In this document: one piece after another, positions 17,721 to 60,946 of the stretch
Numbering within the stretch: the first letter of the stretch is position 1
Layout: each line of letters opens with the position of its first letter
DNA from: a virus
Length of the DNA stretch: 64,000 nucleotides
Virus record (IMG/VR): IMGVR_UViG_3300009509_000001
Span: 124,001 to 188,000 of that record
Reading direction: 5' to 3' (one strand)
Notes under the pieces: model-generated
What the model was told of the DNA's origin: nothing
Databases searched by the model: none
What the model saw: only the letters and a program-made list of their open reading frames with translations
Made by a program: the position numbers and the translations under genes

Positions 17721-17749
17721 ACCATACACCGGGTCCGCGGGTTTGTAAA
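17721..17749 (-). promoter_or_regulatory. Candidate promoter for the RuvC-like gene
   Basis: Read on the minus strand: TTTACA, a 17-base spacer, TATGGT, ending about 20 bases before the ATG. It marks the boundary between the leftward gene block and the hairpin array. Confidence 0.5.
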
Positions 17750-17793
17750 GCAATGTGGGGAAATAGGTACGACTAAACAGAGCCCTGGGTCAA

Positions 17794-20700
17794 CGTGACA
17801 TTCATGTCACGATGACATCGCGTTGTGGCAGGCGCGCTTCGTGACGTTCATGTAACGGAGCGCGCCGCCGGCGGGAATGGGATGTAATTGGATCGATGTC
17901 GGCGCGGCGCCGACGAAGACTCGTACCTTCATGCGACTCAAAAACAATCCCCGATATGTTTTCGGGGACAGGGCAGCCAGGGCGGCTGGTCTCCAGCTCA
18001 CTGGCTGCCTTGAAGCCTCCTGTATCCCGAGGGACGTGGAGCCCATAGGCGTGGCGCCTATGTCGTCTCGCATGCACACGCGTAGCGCTAGAGTCAGTAG
18101 GCGCAAGCCTTCGACTCGGTTGATGGGTGTATTCCATTCATCCAGGCGGCGCGGCGCCGCCACGTACCGCTACATTCGGATGCTTGAATAGCCAGCCGGC
18201 GTCCTCCTGAGGGCGCAGACCGGGGGATGGACGCCGGCTGGGTTGCTGGCCGGCGTGATCATCTAGGCGATACAGGCGGTGCGCCTGCTAATGCCATCCG
18301 TTAAATTACCCGCTAAGAGTGAGGAGGGAATGCAACTGGAGTTATTGCCAGGCCGGGGGCATGGTGGTAAGTCCAGTTGGAAAGTGCGACAATGCGTGTC
18401 CGTAGGACTTGTCGTGCTTCCGACGAGCGATCGCGGGGCGCCGCAGGTGACGTACCAGCTGTAAGCTGGTGCGTTGCCCGTACTCTCCTCGTGTTATGAA
18501 AATGCCGGCGCATCGCCGGCGATCACCGGGTAGGAAAAATCAGAGTCACTAACCACAGTCAGTCCGCAAGCGCTGCGCGGACTGGCTGACTTCAAGCGAA
18601 GCGCAGCAAGTGCGCAAAGCCCACTGGGTTTTGCGCAGGCGTCTTCGTGGAATGCTGATGTCCTTTCGGACCATGGGCGATGCGCCCACTGCCACTGACT
18701 CTGGAAAACCACGCTTACACTTTTGCAAGCACAGCTCGAGCGGAGGGGAGGAGTGTTTTTGGATTTATCCGGCGAAGCCTGGTTGAATCCAAAAACTCGG
18801 GGGAGCGATGCTCGAGCTGTGTGAGTTGGTATACGGACCGACTCGCGACGTTGGCGGCGAATCGCCGCCCATGACCGTGGTTCGAACACTTAAACAAGGA
18901 AACGTAGCAGGCACCTGGGCTCTGCTACGTATCCGGCCGGTGGAGGGATGAACCCTTTCCGGGCTGACGGCGTTGCACCGTCCAACACTGTTCGTTACTA
19001 GGAGGAGGAGTCGAATTACTGCCCGAATTCGGCTCCGGAGGAATGGCGGTAGTGGTGCGGGCAGTCAAAGCCGCGTAGGGCCAGACTGGGCGAATGCCGT
19101 GCACCGTACCTATTGGCGGCGAATCGCCACCGCTCACTAACGACAATCAACTCTCATACACACGTGTCCGACTGCCCATCGTGGCAATCCGCTGCCGGCG
19201 CAGCGCCGGCCAGGCCAGTTGATCCTGTGTCATAACCGGTTCGGCGATTAAATCCTTGCCGGTTCTACGACGCCGCCGTCGGGTTGGGCGTCGGGGTTTG
19301 GTTGCGGTTTGGGCCGATCCACGTCGCTTGCCATTGAATGCAATGCTCGGGCGCGTGTCGTGCCTGGTTGACGCTGCACTTATACTGGTGAAGCTTGCTT
19401 CACCTGTAAGCTGGGCGTTCGTGCCCATGCTTGATCCAGACGATGCGCCTGAATGGACTGCAGCGTAGCGCGCTCTACACTAGCGAAATCCGGAACGCCT
19501 TCCGGATGAGTTACGGTATAGTCGCAATGAGGTACCCGGGCTCGCTTGCGAGCGGAAGTGGTACCTGAGCAGCGACTGAGGAATCATGCGAACATGTTCC
19601 CTGCCGGCGTTGCACCGGCGCCTTCTGTAGAACTTGTACTAACTGCTGCTGCAGGACAATCGGAGTGCAGCAGCAGTACGCCGGCGGTAAACCGGTACTG
19701 ATGGTACAGGCGGTGCGCCTGCGACTACTACAAGTATCGATACTAAATCAACGCGGGCGACCCTTAATCGGCGTACGCAGTGGAAGCCGACCTGGGGTCG
19801 CCCGCGGTCCGCCTTCGGCTTTCGCCTGACGGGCCTGCGGCGCAACGCCGCGATGGACTATCGAAATCGTGACACTGATCAGGATGTCGCCGAGGTAGAA
19901 GAGCATCGGCGACATCCGGACTCTTAACGTTGCAAACGTTAAGTACAACGAACGGATGACGCTCCGTCGACTGCAGGCGAAGCGCCTGCGAACACTGTCA
20001 CTGAAAGAGGCACAAAAACTCAGGAGGAGGAACTGAACGTCCCGACGGGCGGGGGGTTCCTCCTCGCTTAGCCTGCATGGTCCTGACGGACCGGTTGCCT
20101 GTGGGCGAAGCGCCCGCGAAGACTGCCTCTGGTGCGTGCACGGCACAAAAAGGTGCACCCGGGATGACGATCTCACGTATCTGCGTGATCAGGAATCCCG
20201 GGTGCGCTATACGAGTGCGGACACACGTATCAGCTGTAGGCGCAACACCTACTTCCGCTGCCGGCATAAATTACACTACTGGTGCTCGATGAAAGCGAGC
20301 GCGCGTGGACCTCTTTGACGCAGGCACGCAGGGCCAGTCGTCGAAGAGGGGAACTCTACAGGATCGTGCGGTCCCGCAGGTTTGGCGGCGATTCGCCGCC
20401 ACTTGCTGTAATCGATTGCTATGACCCAGACAGGCGTTCAGCCTGTCGCGGAGTCCTGACTGGCTTAGACTTCAGTCTTGGCCATCAGGATGGACCTTGA
20501 GGAATGCATATCGCCATAAGCGACCCCGGCGTGACGCCGGGTAATTCCAATCGTATACGAATCTGACCGCTCACTTTCAGCTCTCCCCAGATGACTCCGA
20601 GGCGAAGACATGGATGTGATCTGGGGAGATTGCCCCGAATGCATGCCATATCGTTCGTTGCAGGCGATGCGCCTGCGATGACCGGTCGTGTACACGGACC

Positions 20701-21376
20701 TCGATCGATGGAACGGAAGATCGAGGTGCTCCTCGTGCCGGTGGATTGTCGGTGGAAGCCGACAATGCTCAACCTGATGGCACGCGGTTTCGCACGTCAT
20801 GGCGCTTCGCCATGGGATGCTGTACATCTCACACAAACCCAGGGATCCCGTCGCGTTTACGAAGAAAGGGATCCCGGGCCATGACCTGGTAGGTTTCCTA
20901 CCAGGTCGATGGGCATGAATGCCCGAGGACTTTGAGGTTACAGGCGAAACGCCTGCGAGGACTGTGAGACGCGTTTCACTATCGCAGATCCGGCGGTGCC
21001 CGCCGGAGCAGCGCGGTGCACGGGGACCCTGGGAGCTGTGAAGCGCTACCTGGGTCCCCGTGCAGCCTCCTAGCCTGGAGGCCGGTTGGGACATTGGCGG
21101 CGAATCGCCGCCTTGTGCTGAAACACTTACGAAAATCGGGCCACGCCCGACGGCGGGGATGAGGCTGCCCGGGCATAAGCTTGCGTTGCCGGGCAGCCTC
21201 ATCTCTCTGACATCCGCTTGAAATTGGGCGGTAGCAGGCGAGGCGCCTGCGTGTACTGTTTCTGCAGAAACGTCGATCGCATTATAATCACGAGACGCAC
21301 GTGAGTGGGCGTGCGATCTCGTGATACGGTGGCTGCCGTCGGTCTCCTGTGAAGCGGGTGACCGACGGCAGCCATC
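17794..21376 (+). ncRNA. Series of about 27 long hairpins, candidate small structured RNAs
   Basis: Long inverted repeats lie between the 17-nt elements: 17794-17811, 17831-17866, 17948-17968, 17972-18009, 18192-18241, 18333-18379, 18387-18414, 18611-18637, 18731-18820, 18902-18930, 19018-19065, 19234-19264, 19387-19404, 19488-19507, 19530-19566, 19642-19677, 19752-19806, 19882-19917, 20024-20065, 20153-20207, 20310-20349, 20454-20490, 20582-20629, 20698-20727, 20838-20878, 20883-20907, 21017-21064, 21158-21203, 21287-21325, 21328-21376. Several contain G-T pairs that are wobbles only if the plus strand is RNA. None is followed by a T-run, so they are not intrinsic terminators. Loops often contain GAAG. 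Confidence 0.55.
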
Positions 21377-21544
21377 TCCTGGAAAGCTACGTGACGTTGT
21401 CACGCTCGGCGCAGCGCCGAGTCGAGCCGATCGACCGGATGGAAAGGGCACTTGATAAATGGACAAATCTGACCGCACCGAGATGGTACCGGGTGGCCTT
21501 GACGGCGAGTCGCCGCCGCTAACTGCCCTGGGGCGATGCGCCCC
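17898..21544 (+). repeat. Dispersed 17-nt hairpin element, 26 copies (candidate folded promoter)
   Basis: Consensus NNNGGCGNNNCRCCNNN: arms pair, the 3-nt loop varies freely, and a motif RCYR follows after exactly four bases in most copies (for example GCAGGCGAAGCGCCTGC then GAAC then ACTG). Starts of copies: 17898, 18045, 18145, 18272, 18504, 18673, 18853, 18966, 19115, 19194, 19603, 19706, 19836, 19973, 20101, 20236, 20384, 20525, 20660, 20798, 20940, 21096, 21234, 21405, 21501, 21529. Diverged copies: 19436, 19680, 20429, 20990. The outer three pairs covary between copies, so the fold is conserved rather than the sequence. Geometry resembles promoters of the N4 virion RNA polymerase (inference). 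Confidence 0.75.
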
Positions 21545-21600
21545 TTTCGCGGTGATTACGCCGACCGGGGTTACCTGCCGGCGCACTGTCCGCTGCTACC

Positions 21601-22212
21601 CTAGACGGGTAGTTCGGCGTCTAATTGCTTGAGGAACAGATCACGGACGACCCGCGCCTTGTTCTCAGGGATGTACGGGCTTTCATTGCCTTCGGGCGGG
21701 ACGCCGTACAGCTCGGCCAGTTCGTCGAGCTTGTACCGGTTGAGGCCGCGCATGGACTTCACCCGCTCCTGCAGATGCAGTATGCTGGTCGACTCCGACA
21801 GGCGGTCGTTCCAGTACCGGATCGTCTTGTGAAGGACGGCCGGGTCGACGAACGTGGCGTTGGTCGGCAGCAACTTCTGGTCGAGCAGCTTGTCGCGTAC
21901 GAACGTGAACGCCTGGTGGGCCACCAGACAGGTTATGCCGTGCGTCTCCATTATGGACTGCAGGGTCTCCGCGGCCATGTGGGGTTCGACGGCCAGCGAC
22001 GAGTAGACCGTGGCGGGAATGCCGTGGTACTGCTCGGTCTCCGACAGGTTGGCCCCGGCGACGAACACGCTGATGTCCGGTCCGTCGATGGGTTTGATGG
22101 CGATCATACCGACCTTTGCGTCGGGCTTGATGCCGTCGGTGGCCAGTGCTATTGCGGCGCTCGCTTCCGGGCGTACCCAGAATGGTCGAAGCGCGTCTCT
22201 AAGTGTAGTCAT
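21601..22212 (-). CDS. Possible DnaQ-type exonuclease, degenerate
   Basis: A 203-residue protein. LVAHQAFTFVRDKL (about residues 97-110) and LDELAELYGVP near the C-terminus resemble the second and third exonuclease motifs of DEDD nucleases. The first motif is only weakly visible (ALATDGIKPDAKVGMIAI) and lacks the usual D-x-E. So either a divergent nuclease or an inactive relative. Start at 22212, overlapping the upstream stop. Confidence 0.5.
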   Translation of the reverse strand: MTTLRDALRPFWVRPEASAAIALATDGIKPDAKVGMIAIKPIDGPDISVFVAGANLSETEQYHGIPATVYSSLAVEPHMAAETLQSIMETHGITCLVAHQAFTFVRDKLLDQKLLPTNATFVDPAVLHKTIRYWNDRLSESTSILHLQERVKSMRGLNRYKLDELAELYGVPPEGNESPYIPENKARVVRDLFLKQLDAELPV

Positions 22213-55808: not shown

Positions 55809-56483
55809 TCACAACCAGTGCTTTTCAAGCATGTCGTGAAATACTTCGATTTCGGCCAGGCGCTGGGCTTTTCCCATTTCGCTGAACCCCTCAGCGTCGC
55901 ACTCGGCCAGGTGGATGTAGAGCCAGACGACCTTCATGACGTCCTGCTCCCTGAAGCCCTCGGTGAGTCTCCGGATGAACTTTCGGAAACCCTTGGGGCT
56001 TACGACCGGCTCGTATTCACCGGCGTCGCTCTTCTTCGCCAGCTGCTGAATCCAACCATGATGCTCAATGACCCGTACGACTGCGACCGTGCAGTTGCAG
56101 TTGACCGCAATTTCGGCGCTTTTCTCCTCATGCTTGGGGAAGCGGTAGCCACCGCCCTCCTTCGGTTCCACGACATCGAGCTTGCCGACGTCGTGGAGCA
56201 TGGCGGCCTGCACCAGATCGGGGCTGACATAATCATGGCTCTTGGCGGCCTCCACGACCGCCACCATGTGGCCGTCGGTATCCAGGTCGTGGAATGCATG
56301 CTGCGGGTTGAGTCCGCCGAGATCCATGACCTTCTTGAGAGTCTGGTTGTAGACGTTACGTACCAGCTCGAAGACACCGTTCTGGCACATGTCGGTCGGC
56401 GTGCTGAGCATGGTAAGTCCGTCGTTGAGCTTGGGAAGAGGCGTACCCTCAATGGGCACTTTACCGATGGTTAAGTCAGTCAT
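55809..56483 (-). CDS. HD-domain phosphohydrolase
   Basis: A 224-residue protein. The HD pattern is visible: HAFHDLDTDGH (about residues 62-72), AAMLHDVGKLD (93-103, with the His-Asp pair), and VIEHHGW (about 137). HD enzymes hydrolyse nucleotides or second messengers; phage examples act on dNTPs or signalling nucleotides. The start overlaps the small upstream gene (ATGACTGA). Confidence 0.75.
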   Translation of the reverse strand: MTDLTIGKVPIEGTPLPKLNDGLTMLSTPTDMCQNGVFELVRNVYNQTLKKVMDLGGLNPQHAFHDLDTDGHMVAVVEAAKSHDYVSPDLVQAAMLHDVGKLDVVEPKEGGGYRFPKHEEKSAEIAVNCNCTVAVVRVIEHHGWIQQLAKKSDAGEYEPVVSPKGFRKFIRRLTEGFREQDVMKVVWLYIHLAECDAEGFSEMGKAQRLAEIEVFHDMLEKHWL

Positions 56484-56586: not shown

Positions 56587-56789
56587 AGTCTGTTCTCCAG
56601 TGCCCTGTTATAGCCGCTCCACCCGGGCCAGGTGGGCGGTCTTAGTTAAAGAAAAAGCAAAGGATTGAAAATCATCCACCAGCAGCAGCCCTTCAACGAC
56701 GCGATGTCGATGAAGGAAAACACCCATGCCACAGGCATACCGCATCGCTGAGGTATGGCCCATAGTAGGGTGAGGCTTGTCCAGCCCCG

Positions 56790-56822
56790 AAAAAAGGCGA
56801 CCACGCTAAATACGTGGCCGCC
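56790..56822 (-). terminator. Intrinsic terminator of the large RNA
   Basis: On the minus strand GGCGGCCACG and CGTGGTCGCC form a 10-bp stem with a 7-nt loop, followed by TTTTTT. One pair is a G-T wobble only on this strand, confirming direction. It closes the structured RNA lying to its right. Confidence 0.82.
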
Positions 56823-57560
56823 CCGGGATGGGAGTGAGAAAAAGAGGAGTGAGCGGGGCCATCGCCCTGCACGCCGATTACTCGGCGCCCGGTGCCTGTC
56901 ACGCACCGGACTCACTGGGTATGCCGCTTTCACCTATGGCCCCGGGTTTCCCCGGTAACTGCCATTGCTACTAGCGTCACTTCAGGAACTCCAATGTTCC
57001 CTTGGCCTTTGTTCATCCAGGTGGTACACCCTGGAGGCCATGCGGCGAGGCTTCAACACCTTACCGCACCTTGTCAGCTCCTTTAAGATCCTCCCGTTGT
57101 AACAGGGGGATCAACCACGGTTACCGTCCGTGGCGTGCTGACGACCCCTATTAAGGGGTCCTGTCGGGAACCGCTCCCGTAGCGTCGACTCGCGCCGATG
57201 AGATTCGACCGAATCACTGTCGAAGTGGGTCACCATGCCGATTGCCCGTGGCCGAGGGGTTGCACCTGTTCCGCTCCGTCGCCCCGAAGGGCAACCGATT
57301 GGAAGGCGTTCCTCCGACCACCCCTTGGGCATTCAGCGTGGCTGAGCCCCTGCATTAACCATGATTTCCTACTTGTCCGACATGGGAGCCGGACGTTCGG
57401 TAATCATAGAGGTTGCAGGGTTCTCCCACATTCGACCGATATTCGGTCACGGTGCGATTGAGGCACCGTCGCGGCAGTCCAGTCACCTGGATAAACCGCT
57501 GGAGCATTGTAACCCTTACTCTTAGGAGGGGGAGCTAAACTCCGTTCAGGTAATCATACG
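56790..57560 (-). ncRNA. Large structured non-coding RNA (GOLLD/ROOL-class candidate)
   Basis: About 770 bases, no gene, full of stable helices when read on the minus strand. Examples: 57449-57469, 57281-57292 (UUCG tetraloop), 57143-57160, 56942-56955 (GAAA tetraloop, CCGGG stem), 56889-56909 and 56872-56887 (GUAA tetraloop). GNRA tetraloops and this density of helices are marks of the large phage RNAs GOLLD and ROOL (about 600-900 nt), which assemble into multimers. It ends with an intrinsic terminator. The 5' end near 57560 is an estimate. Membership of either family is inferred from size, context and tetraloops, not from alignment. Confidence 0.65.
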
Positions 57561-57576
57561 ACATTTCTGCCTCAAA

Positions 57577-57750
57577 TTAACCGAACGGAATCAGGCTCCG
57601 AAAAGACCCTGGAAACCCCCTCTGAAGTCTCAATTTTTGCAGGCGTTTTACCTTCAAAGGGGGTCCCCATCGGGGGAATTCGGGTTCGTGCGAGTGTACC
57701 ACGCTCGCTACGTCAAAAGGCCACCCGAACCGGGCCTTCGATGGGGTCAT
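57577..57750 (-). CDS. Possible leader peptide upstream of the large RNA
   Basis: A 57-residue basic frame (MTPSKARFGWPFDV...) with an excellent ribosome site (AAAGGAGG, then six bases, then ATG). It ends just before the large RNA. It could be a leader gene, or the sequence could be part of the RNA's 5' region. Confidence 0.45.
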   Translation of the reverse strand: MTPSKARFGWPFDVASVVHSHEPEFPRWGPPLKVKRLQKLRLQRGFPGSFRSLIPFG

Positions 57751-57779
57751 TGTGCCCTCCTTTACCCCTTTCGGGGCTT

Positions 57780-57971
57780 TAGAATAAAGGAAAAAACCGC
57801 TCAAAATAGCCCATTTTTCGTGGTAAACGGTCCCATCTAGGTAAATATACTGAAAAAACGGCCAAAATTAACCAATATGTGTGTGTATTGAAAACTGGCC
57901 ATTTTGGGGTATTGTCGCGCAATATTCAACCTGTGTGGACAACGCGGCGATTTGCGTTATATTAGAGGCAT
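57780..57971. promoter_or_regulatory. AT-rich divergent control region
   Basis: Separates the leftward genes from the rightward terminase gene. It has three related segments: AAAAAACCGCTCAAAAT (57791-57807), AAAAAACGGCCAAAAT (57853-57868) and AAAACTGGCCATTTT (about 57891-57905), which may be protein-binding sites. TTGAAA (57888) with TATTGT (57910) at 16 bases spacing is another plausible plus-strand promoter. TATATT on the minus strand near 57845 may serve the leftward RNA. Confidence 0.5.
57936..57963 (+). promoter_or_regulatory. Candidate promoter of the terminase gene
   Basis: TGGACA (57936-57941), 16-base spacer, TATATT (57958-57963). It ends nine bases before the ATG, so the transcript would be nearly leaderless unless an upstream promoter is used. 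Confidence 0.45.
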
Positions 57972-59714
57972 ATGTCACATATACTCGCAGACTACGTCGA
58001 TGCCGTGAAAGCCGGCAGAATAACATCGTTGGACCCGTTGGTATCGCTGTTCAAGTACCAGGGAAGGCCCATGAACCTGCACCGGCACTTCCAGCTGGCG
58101 CCAATGTACAGTCTTCGGATGCCGACGAACATGGTTTTCCAGTGCGGCCGGCAGATCGCCAAGAGTTTCGGCATCGCGGAAAAGGGCATACTGCTCTCAG
58201 GCTCGCTGCCTGACTTCCACACACTATACGTGCAGCCGCGGTTCGACCAGATCAAACGCTTCAACACCGCGATCGTGCAGCCATTGCTGCGAAGCATGGT
58301 AATACGCGACCAGATAATCGAGAAGCAGCAGATCAGCAGCTTCCTCATGCGTAACTTCAAGAACAACTCCATCATGTATATGGAGTTTTGTCTTATCAGC
58401 CCGGACCGTACCCGCGGTATTTCGGGTGTGAGCCACGTATTCTACGACGAAGTGCAGGATCTGGATCTCGACAACATCGAAATCATCAGCGAGGTCATGT
58501 CCGCCACCATCAACTATGGGTTCAGCCAGTATACGGGAACGCCGAAGACCACGGACGGAGCTCTCTCCGTTCTTTTCGACCGGTCGAGCCAGGCCCACGT
58601 GGTGCTTCCGTGCGAATGCGGCCACCACAACATGGCACACCCGAACGAAGACCTGTTCAAGATGATCGGAAAGTGGGACGACGTGCTGAAGACCGGCATA
58701 CACTGCACGAAATGCGACCGCGGCCTGGATTGCCGCAAGGGTTACTTCAAGCATCTGTTCCCGGATAGGCGCGTGGACTTCCCGGGATACCACGTCGGCC
58801 AGATCACGCACCCACTGCACTGTTCGCTGGAGTCGAAATGGAACACGCTGCTCTACAAGTACAACAATTATACGAAGGCAAAGTTCTTCAACGAAATCGC
58901 GGGCGTTCCATGTGACGAGTCGGTAAAGCTGCTTACCATGGCCGACCTGGAAAAGGCGTGCAACGACACGCTGCCGACCATCGAGGAGGCGATAAAACGC
59001 CGCGGGTACTATGGTAACTGCATACTTGGCGTGGACTGGAGCGGTGGCGGATCATTGGGGAAATCCTACACGGCCGGGGCGATCGTAGGGGAAAGACCGG
59101 GTACTCAGAAACTGGACTGCATTCATGCCTTCAGGCTTCCGATGGGGATGAAGCCGGAAGACGAGGCCCAGATCCTGGTCCACTATATGGACAAATTCAA
59201 ATGCCAGCTGCTGGCCCACGATTATACGGGCGCCGGCAATCTGCGCGAAGTCATGATGAACAACGCCGGCATCCCGGCGGAGCGGCTCGTACCGTTCACG
59301 TACGCCTGGGCGCCCAAAAAGGACATCATAAGCCTTTACGCGCCGGCCGACGGCAGCCGACAGTCGTACGTCCTGGACAAGGCCCGAAGTCTGGCCATGA
59401 TGTGCGGCCTGATCCGCGGCGGCATAATATCGATCCCGAAGATGCGCGACAAGGACGACAACCCGGTGATAACCGACCTGTTGGCCCTCGTCGAAGATCC
59501 GAAGGAAATGCCCAGGGGCGGCATCATTTACATGATTCAGCGGTCGCCCGACAAGAGCGACGATTTTGCCCACGCATTGAACATGGCGACCAGCGCTTTC
59601 TGGAAGATTCGCGGCGGATACCCGCAGGTTCACGACGTCGGACGGTACATGATAACCCCCGACGTATTGCGTGATATTGACCCATTTATGGCACAACTTA
59701 TGGCAGGGCCTTGA
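57972..59714 (+). CDS. terL: Terminase large subunit
   Basis: A 580-residue packaging ATPase/nuclease. The ATPase part has a Walker A-like CGRQIAKSFG (about residues 58-67) and Walker B VFYDEVQD (about 156-163). The nuclease part begins GVDWSGGG (Asp about residue 356). A four-cysteine segment (CECGH...CTKC, residues about 215-250) suggests a zinc site. It drives DNA packaging into proheads. AGAGG precedes the ATG. The small subunit is not recognised nearby. Confidence 0.88.
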   Translation: MSHILADYVDAVKAGRITSLDPLVSLFKYQGRPMNLHRHFQLAPMYSLRMPTNMVFQCGRQIAKSFGIAEKGILLSGSLPDFHTLYVQPRFDQIKRFNTAIVQPLLRSMVIRDQIIEKQQISSFLMRNFKNNSIMYMEFCLISPDRTRGISGVSHVFYDEVQDLDLDNIEIISEVMSATINYGFSQYTGTPKTTDGALSVLFDRSSQAHVVLPCECGHHNMAHPNEDLFKMIGKWDDVLKTGIHCTKCDRGLDCRKGYFKHLFPDRRVDFPGYHVGQITHPLHCSLESKWNTLLYKYNNYTKAKFFNEIAGVPCDESVKLLTMADLEKACNDTLPTIEEAIKRRGYYGNCILGVDWSGGGSLGKSYTAGAIVGERPGTQKLDCIHAFRLPMGMKPEDEAQILVHYMDKFKCQLLAHDYTGAGNLREVMMNNAGIPAERLVPFTYAWAPKKDIISLYAPADGSRQSYVLDKARSLAMMCGLIRGGIISIPKMRDKDDNPVITDLLALVEDPKEMPRGGIIYMIQRSPDKSDDFAHALNMATSAFWKIRGGYPQVHDVGRYMITPDVLRDIDPFMAQLMAGP

Positions 59715-60209: not shown

Positions 60210-60860
60210 CTAACCGGCCAACTGCCCGTCAAGTACGAGGATGCCGGCGCCGTCGCCCGCTGCCTCGAGGCGAGACAGAAGAGTTTTGGCAGCGTCCTCT
60301 TCCTCCATCTGCTCCGTGACGAACCACTGAGCGAGCTCGAGAGTCCCGGCGTCGTCGGTGGCGATACACTCTTTCGCGATGATGCGCCAGTTCTTGGTAA
60401 CCGCGCGCTCACGCTCGAGAATGCCCTGGATGGCTTCTTTGATGCTTGGGAACTTGACGGAAACACCCGCGATCTGGGGCAGCTCAGGCGTCGCGCCGAG
60501 CGTTACGAGGAAGTCGAGTATCTTCTTCATGTGCTGGAGTTCGCCACAAGCCTGCGTGCCTGCCCAGGTGGCAAAGCCGCTGAAGCCCTGGCCTTCGAAC
60601 CAGCCAGCCGCCGCGATGTACTCGTAATAGGCGAAGAGCTCATTCCCGATTTGCTGGCAGAGCATCTGCTCGACAGCGTCCGTGATGAACTTAGTCTGCT
60701 GGGTTTCAGGCGTTTCGGGCGTCTCGAGGGCAGACGAAGTCTTGCCTTCGGTGGGCGTTTCGGCAGGGGCCGTCTTGACGGGCTCAGAAGGTTCATTCTC
60801 GATGTCGACTGTTCCGTCGGCGGCGTTCTTCGTCAGGAATGCTCTCAGTTTGGCGTTCAT
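60210..60860 (-). CDS. Ferritin-like protein
   Basis: A 216-residue protein with an N-terminal disordered, acidic, Pro/Thr-rich extension (about 55 residues), then a four-helix ferritin domain: IGNELFAYYEYIAAAGWF (first helix Glu), WAGTQACGELQHMKKI (ExxH), a 40-residue connector with SIKEAIQGILERE, and WFVTEQMEEED. The ferroxidase-type Glu and His residues are in place. It would store or oxidise iron. It is on the minus strand inside a plus-strand region and has its own promoter candidate. Confidence 0.8.
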   Translation of the reverse strand: MNAKLRAFLTKNAADGTVDIENEPSEPVKTAPAETPTEGKTSSALETPETPETQQTKFITDAVEQMLCQQIGNELFAYYEYIAAAGWFEGQGFSGFATWAGTQACGELQHMKKILDFLVTLGATPELPQIAGVSVKFPSIKEAIQGILERERAVTKNWRIIAKECIATDDAGTLELAQWFVTEQMEEEDAAKTLLSRLEAAGDGAGILVLDGQLAG

Positions 60861-60946
60861 GATCCGGTATACCTCGAATTGTACTGTTATGAGTGGATCA
60901 CGGCCGTCGACATGGACGGAAACCGCGAAATCATTGATCAACTACT

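Follow-up and report, generated by a model that had tools for sequence, protein, structure and literature searches.

Gene setting of the locus

The window analysed here, a stretch of 64 kb, corresponds to bases 124001-188000 of a virus record of 194,576 bp. The first bases of this record recur at 194432, and since its ends repeat over ~144 bp it is probably a complete circular map or a terminally redundant genome. The genome codes for a major head protein, for an RNA-polymerase beta-like protein and, by a weak match, for a portal protein. In the phage collection, both TerL and RNA polymerase point to Vibrio phage D69 and Salmonella phage Arash as the closest named relatives, with ~25-29% identity. 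TerL also led to a clade in IMG/VR, mostly 34-41% identical, whose longest contigs are ~190-205 kb. No close relative of the phage was found by these searches, which may omit very near records.

The locus is a gap of 1.5 kb between two divergent genes, and ~1 kb of it has no credible genes:

55809-56483, minus strand: HD-domain gene (Pfam HD, score below the Pfam cut-off)
56790-57838, minus strand: whole structured RNA element, ~1,049 nt, putatively transcribed; delimited by fold z-score, tetraloop excess, non-coding score, helix P1 with terminator, and a -10-like box
57972-59714, plus strand: terL, an ordinary TerL (phrog_675)

A sequence-only reading of this DNA had placed a large RNA beside the terminase, at the junction of the early and packaging sides. 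The neighbour is indeed terL, starting at 57972 on the plus strand; as for the junction, what we observe is the strand switch, with the HD-domain gene on minus and terL on plus. Shortly downstream of terL, on the opposite strand (60210-60941, minus), the phage encodes a protein with a ferritin-like domain (PF00210, E 1.9e-27). There are no tRNA genes in the 64-kb window.

Extent and ends of the element

The element has a predicted 5' end at 57838 and a predicted 3' end at 56790, both on the minus strand. The earlier outline of ~770 bases (56790-57560) was correct in marking structured DNA, but it covers only the 3' three quarters; the 5' quarter was missed, the 5' end lying at ~57838. The following features define the two ends:

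57783-57867, minus strand: tandem motif TTTTG[AG][CG]CG[GT]TTTTT, two copies 61 nt apart, then TATATT / TTTATTCT
57845-57850, minus strand: -10-like hexamer TATATT (direct reading), 7 nt before the first base of P1, with a weak -35
57831-57837, minus strand: 5' strand of helix P1, GAUGGGA, pairing with 56833-56827 (probability 0.96)
56827-56833, minus strand: 3' strand of helix P1, UCCCAUC, directly before the terminator
56790-56824, minus strand: intrinsic terminator with an 11-13 bp stem, AUUUA loop and six U (pair probability 0.97)

The terminator that had been claimed for this site is confirmed by direct reading of the minus strand, where GGGGCGGCCACGU-AUUUA-GCGUGGUCGCC-UUUUUU forms a perfect example ending at 56790. 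It was not listed by the consensus terminator scan, and the TATATT box at 57845-57850 was not listed by the consensus promoter scan. We regard TATATT as a putative promoter box, from which transcription would start at ~57838. A 7-nt complement such as P1 in such a position occurs in ~0.5% of random trials. Position 57838 was chosen from the -10 box and the P1 pairing jointly, and the two lines are not fully independent. The tandem motif, found nowhere else in the genome, sits upstream of the 5' end of the RNA and overlaps it.

Excess of structure and tetraloops

Folding of the minus strand of 56791-57838 gives a minimum free energy (MFE) of -505.2 kcal/mol, against -397.7 +/- 9.3 in 120 dinucleotide shuffles (z -11.6); a separate tool, applied to a shorter stretch of the element, gives z -11.1. 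The plus strand of the same interval reaches -455.1 (z -7.4, dinucleotide shuffles). Stable helices on one strand had been proposed, with the strand left unnamed, and the comparison of z -11.6 with -7.4 favours minus. Seen in 200-nt windows, both strands exceed the shuffled expectation over ~56,600-57,800, with minus higher in most windows. Eight random stretches of 1,048 nt, taken as controls from the minus strand of a gene-dense part of the same genome, have z from +1.0 to -4.9 and contain no GNRA loop.

The minus-strand MFE fold has 11 tetraloops, of which 6 are GNRA and 1 is UUCG:

57772, 57567 and 56950, minus strand: GAAA tetraloops
57486, minus strand: GUGA tetraloop
57288, minus strand: UUCG tetraloop
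57193, minus strand: GCGA tetraloop
56881, minus strand: GUAA tetraloop

Shuffled sequences have on average 0.38 GNRA and 0.02 UUCG/UACG loops, and none of the 120 shuffles reached 7. The GAAA, GUAA and UUCG loops reported earlier are thus present and also enriched, with 7 special loops against 0.4 per shuffle. No GNRA or UNCG tetraloop appears in the plus-strand fold. This excess is not an artefact of the energy model, because the shuffles were folded with the same special-loop energy bonuses. In these predicted folds it is the strongest sign that selection acts on a minus-strand RNA and not on DNA palindromes. A long non-coding element with structure far beyond chance is what the descriptive class "large ornate phage RNA" covers, and the element has both properties.

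Across the genome, structure scans show only two places that are prominent over several consecutive windows, the RNA locus and a hairpin array at 17.7-21.6 kb. The array (17740-21620 of the window) is gene-poor and ~3.9 kb long. It consists of dozens of hairpins, in which long and variable ones (11-15 bp) take turns with short ones built as GCAGGCG-NNN-CGCCTGC or GGCGGCG-NNN-CGCCGCC, and its structure is strong on either strand (z about -9 to -11). It has no relevant Rfam match and no tRNA.

Predicted architecture

The minus-strand fold divides into the following parts, from 5' to 3':

57502-57802, minus strand: domain I, ~300 nt, closed by GAGCG/UGCUC, CCUUUAUUCU/AGAGUAAGGG and AGGAGGG/CCCUCCU
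57449-57499, minus strand: two hairpins, one with a GUGA tetraloop and one with the 7-nt loop CUCAAUC (probability 0.97-0.99)
57207-57448, minus strand: domain III, ~240 nt, closed by GACCGAAU/AUUCGGUC (probability mostly 0.89-1.00)
57004-57160, minus strand: domain IV core, with a three-way junction among its four stems (probability 0.91-1.00)
56846-56955, minus strand: 3' region with GAAA and GUAA tetraloop hairpins (0.90-1.00) and enclosing helices at 0.20-0.53, the outer pairing being uncertain

Domain I contains two GAAA tetraloops and a hairpin of 18 bp whose loop has 24 nt; the helices of this domain mostly have probabilities of 0.89-1.00, with some inner helices at 0.32-0.58. Domain III has two long arms, one of them capped by C(UUCG)G. 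Most helices are confidently predicted, by thermodynamic folding of this one sequence, which alone is no proof of the native structure; the standard proof of an RNA structure would be covariation among relatives. The sequence TATGATTACC(T)GAACG occurs twice inside the RNA (57548-57560 and 57396-57411, minus), possibly as an internal duplication or a shared motif.

The predicted loops suggest two candidate kissing contacts:

57629-57634 and 57462-57457, minus strand: AUUGAG (24-nt loop of domain I) with its complement, the loop segment CUCAAU
57696-57702 and 57028-57022, minus strand: UGGUACA (hairpin loop of domain I, direct reading) with its complement UGUACCA (loop of domain IV)

A 6-nt match between unpaired segments, as in the first, arises in 18% of shuffles and is suggestive only. 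For the second, any 7-nt match between unpaired segments arises ~0.02 times per shuffle, for a pair that was picked by eye, and an inner stem of 2 bp has to be opened. Both contacts are candidates of marginal significance that would fit a compact or multimeric fold.

Coding potential

A codon model was built from 82 genes of the phage, where true genes have a mean score of 0.22 and wrong frames of -0.29. The longer open reading frames inside the element score between -0.09 and -0.39, like wrong frames. A conserved protein frame across the element had been named as an observation that would speak against an RNA; judged by codon usage, the answer is against coding. One could still picture several short proteins encoded at the locus, for example by 57577-57750 (57 aa) and 57355-57507, both on minus. 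The former has, on direct reading, a good Shine-Dalgarno sequence, AGGAGG, before AUG 57750, but this is paired in the domain I helix with probability 0.99. The two frames score -0.27 and -0.09, and such frames are short and shift along the element, so that we find this explanation barely credible.

Comparison with known RNA families

No Rfam model matches the locus at the gathering threshold. With the limit relaxed to E<=10, on both strands, nothing relevant appears, only two sub-threshold matches that look like chance. The models of GOLLD (RF02032) and ROOL (RF03087) find nothing in this genome or in 19 kin records, and control genomes were silent too. The proposed membership in the GOLLD/ROOL class is therefore not supported at this locus, while the broader reading as a large ornate non-coding RNA agrees with the GNRA and UUCG loops, the RNA's own terminator and the site beside terL. 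Group I and group II introns, riboswitches and known small RNAs were also considered, and none has a relevant Rfam match at E<=10. A packaging RNA of the phi29 type is ~120-174 nt long and comes with a phi29-type ATPase; the element is ~1,049 nt long and adjacent to a TerL of phrog_675.

GOLLD is likewise phage-encoded, often longer than 800 nt and highly branched, with GNRA loops and, in the solved structure, loop-loop contacts (PMC12286853). Across its homologues GOLLD keeps a conserved 3' domain while the 5' domain varies. The RNA described here differs in having no match to the model on either strand, no nearby tRNA and no relatives found. Proximity to tRNA genes is the usual setting of GOLLD and ROOL, common but not obligatory for GOLLD. 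ROOL is also a large ornate RNA encoded by phages, abundant where it was measured, and forms an RNA cage (PMC12286853); the solved ROOL has 659 nt, whereas the RNA here is longer and without a model match. The cages of GOLLD and ROOL consist of RNA only and are held by kissing loops and A-minor contacts (PMC12286853). As judged from sequence, the likeness to these two families concerns size, origin in a phage, degree of structure and the special loops, and the element belongs to neither of them nor to any Rfam family.

Large RNAs outside these families have been reported in lytic phages. The most abundant transcript of ICP1 is an orphan RNA of ~800 nt, which its authors compared with GOLLD and ROOL (PMC7567579), and phage K has two such lncRNAs (PMC9241854). 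Like the RNA here, they are large and non-coding, come from lytic phages and have no function assigned to them (PMC7567579, PMC9241854), and the ICP1 RNA likewise has no tRNA neighbour (PMC7567579). Transcription has been demonstrated for the ICP1 and phage K RNAs, whereas ours is known from sequence. By the same measure the ICP1 region shows far weaker structure (z -2.4, one GNRA), and since that RNA is expressed, strong folding cannot be taken as typical of such RNAs in general. Given these precedents, the kind of RNA is already known and the present one is a distinct variant.

Search for relatives

The RNA itself had no match in a distant BLASTN search of phages and plasmids, nor in a DNA search of the kin records. 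A nhmmer search over the fetched loci and seven whole kin genomes gave nothing significant. Of the seed k-mers, five were searched in IMG/VR, where no match extended, and one in GTDB genomes, with six matches. A covariance model of the domain IV core (57004-57160), named R1, recovered only itself among 40 records; a further search gave two weak matches (E 0.47 and 1.4), taken as chance.

TerL was also used as bait. As a single sequence it found nothing in IMG/VR, and none was found in GTDB genomes; TerL alignments recovered 39 loci and then 80 loci from IMG/VR. No structured stretch of the RNA's size lies upstream of terL in the second set of 80. In the first scan the contig with the nearest TerL (37-38%) was IMGVR_UViG_3300048837_000984 (locus L069), which has genes, and not such an RNA, upstream of terL.

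This contig carries, 12 kb downstream of terL, a largely non-coding region of ~855 nt (L069 18361-19215; contig 178361-179215) with z -11.2 on minus and -9.5 on plus. GNRA loops are few and the strand is ambiguous. The region holds a 15-bp CCGGGUCGGUCGAGU hairpin and, at its left end, a long hairpin. It resembles the RNA here in being strongly structured and largely non-coding, but it is unrelated in sequence, with nothing shared beyond chance, and does not lie beside terL. Six other kin genomes were scanned whole. Among the 1-2 peaks read by eye in each of G028, G044, G037 and G025 there was no comparable long non-coding one, these being mostly genes with hairpins, and the peaks of G036 and G048 are short. 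Structured stretches in G028, G044 and G037 that looked promising by position were read as short genes with hairpins.

Interpretation

The locus very probably encodes a discrete non-coding structural RNA on the minus strand, divergent from terL. It could be asked whether the signal belongs to the DNA instead, as a packaging site or replication origin whose palindromes merely resemble RNA structure. Both strands do fold better than shuffles, and a strand switch beside terL is where such an element might lie. Against this, the energy differs by strand and GNRA and UUCG loops are confined to minus, asymmetries that would not be expected of DNA hairpins, and the terminator is on the same minus strand; the idea seems highly improbable. 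If the element is an RNA, it might be a very long regulatory 5' leader whose terminator attenuates transcription of the minus-strand operon headed by the HD-domain gene (56483). In favour of this, that gene follows the terminator on the same strand at a distance of ~300 nt, and a domain I helix sequesters the Shine-Dalgarno sequence of AUG 57750. Known leaders, however, are rarely over 500 nt. P1 and the terminator also enclose a closed unit without an obvious anti-terminator, there is room for a separate promoter downstream of the terminator, and no riboswitch or leader of Rfam matches, so that we regard a leader as unlikely.

The position directly beside terL would also suit a packaging RNA that acts as a partner of the terminase, in the manner of the phi29 pRNA. 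The latter is likewise encoded with packaging genes and multimerises through complementary loops to form a ring, which the complementary loops seen here could do as well. The RNA here is six times longer, however, without any family match; the motor gene is an ordinary TerL and not the phi29 ATPase, and at terL no such RNA occurs in kin whose TerL is 34-41% identical. This role appears quite unlikely. A catalytic RNA of a new kind, self-cleaving or splicing, has in its favour that group I and II introns are of comparable size and GNRA content. No group I, group II or ribozyme model matches, no gene is interrupted and no endonuclease lies inside, which leaves such an RNA a very slim chance.

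Our preferred explanation, which we hold to be somewhat better than an even bet, is a stand-alone RNA of ~1,050 nt with its own promoter and terminator, acting in trans as a scaffold or compartment like GOLLD and ROOL. Transcription would run leftwards from an intergenic promoter diverging from terL and would end at the RNA's own intrinsic terminator. The 7-bp P1 is predicted to clamp the 5' and 3' ends, and the interior to fold into ~50 short helices, with GNRA and UUCG loops as caps. In RNA tertiary structure, GNRA loops typically serve for docking; given these and the two complementary loop pairs, a compact body is most likely and multimers joined by kissing loops are possible. During infection the RNA may then act in trans, working like GOLLD and ROOL without being either. 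By analogy with these two it might also form a cage, although we would sooner bet against this. Equally tentative is the idea that the RNA represents a new class of giant phage RNAs, one that has its own architecture, is unrelated to GOLLD, ROOL or OLE and would assemble an RNA-only particle via complementary loops.

Only a handful of natural RNAs are known that combine a length near 1 kb with an ornate fold. With its ends defined and most helices confidently predicted, this RNA lends itself readily to structural work. An RNA that has the hallmarks of GOLLD and ROOL but no sequence relation to them, encoded by a phage of ~195 kb with an RNA-polymerase subunit, would offer an independent case for the question whether giant phage RNAs form cages by convergence. 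If such a class does exist, then together with the unrelated ~855-nt element of the kin phage it would imply that, within a single phage lineage, giant RNAs have repeatedly evolved anew or been replaced.
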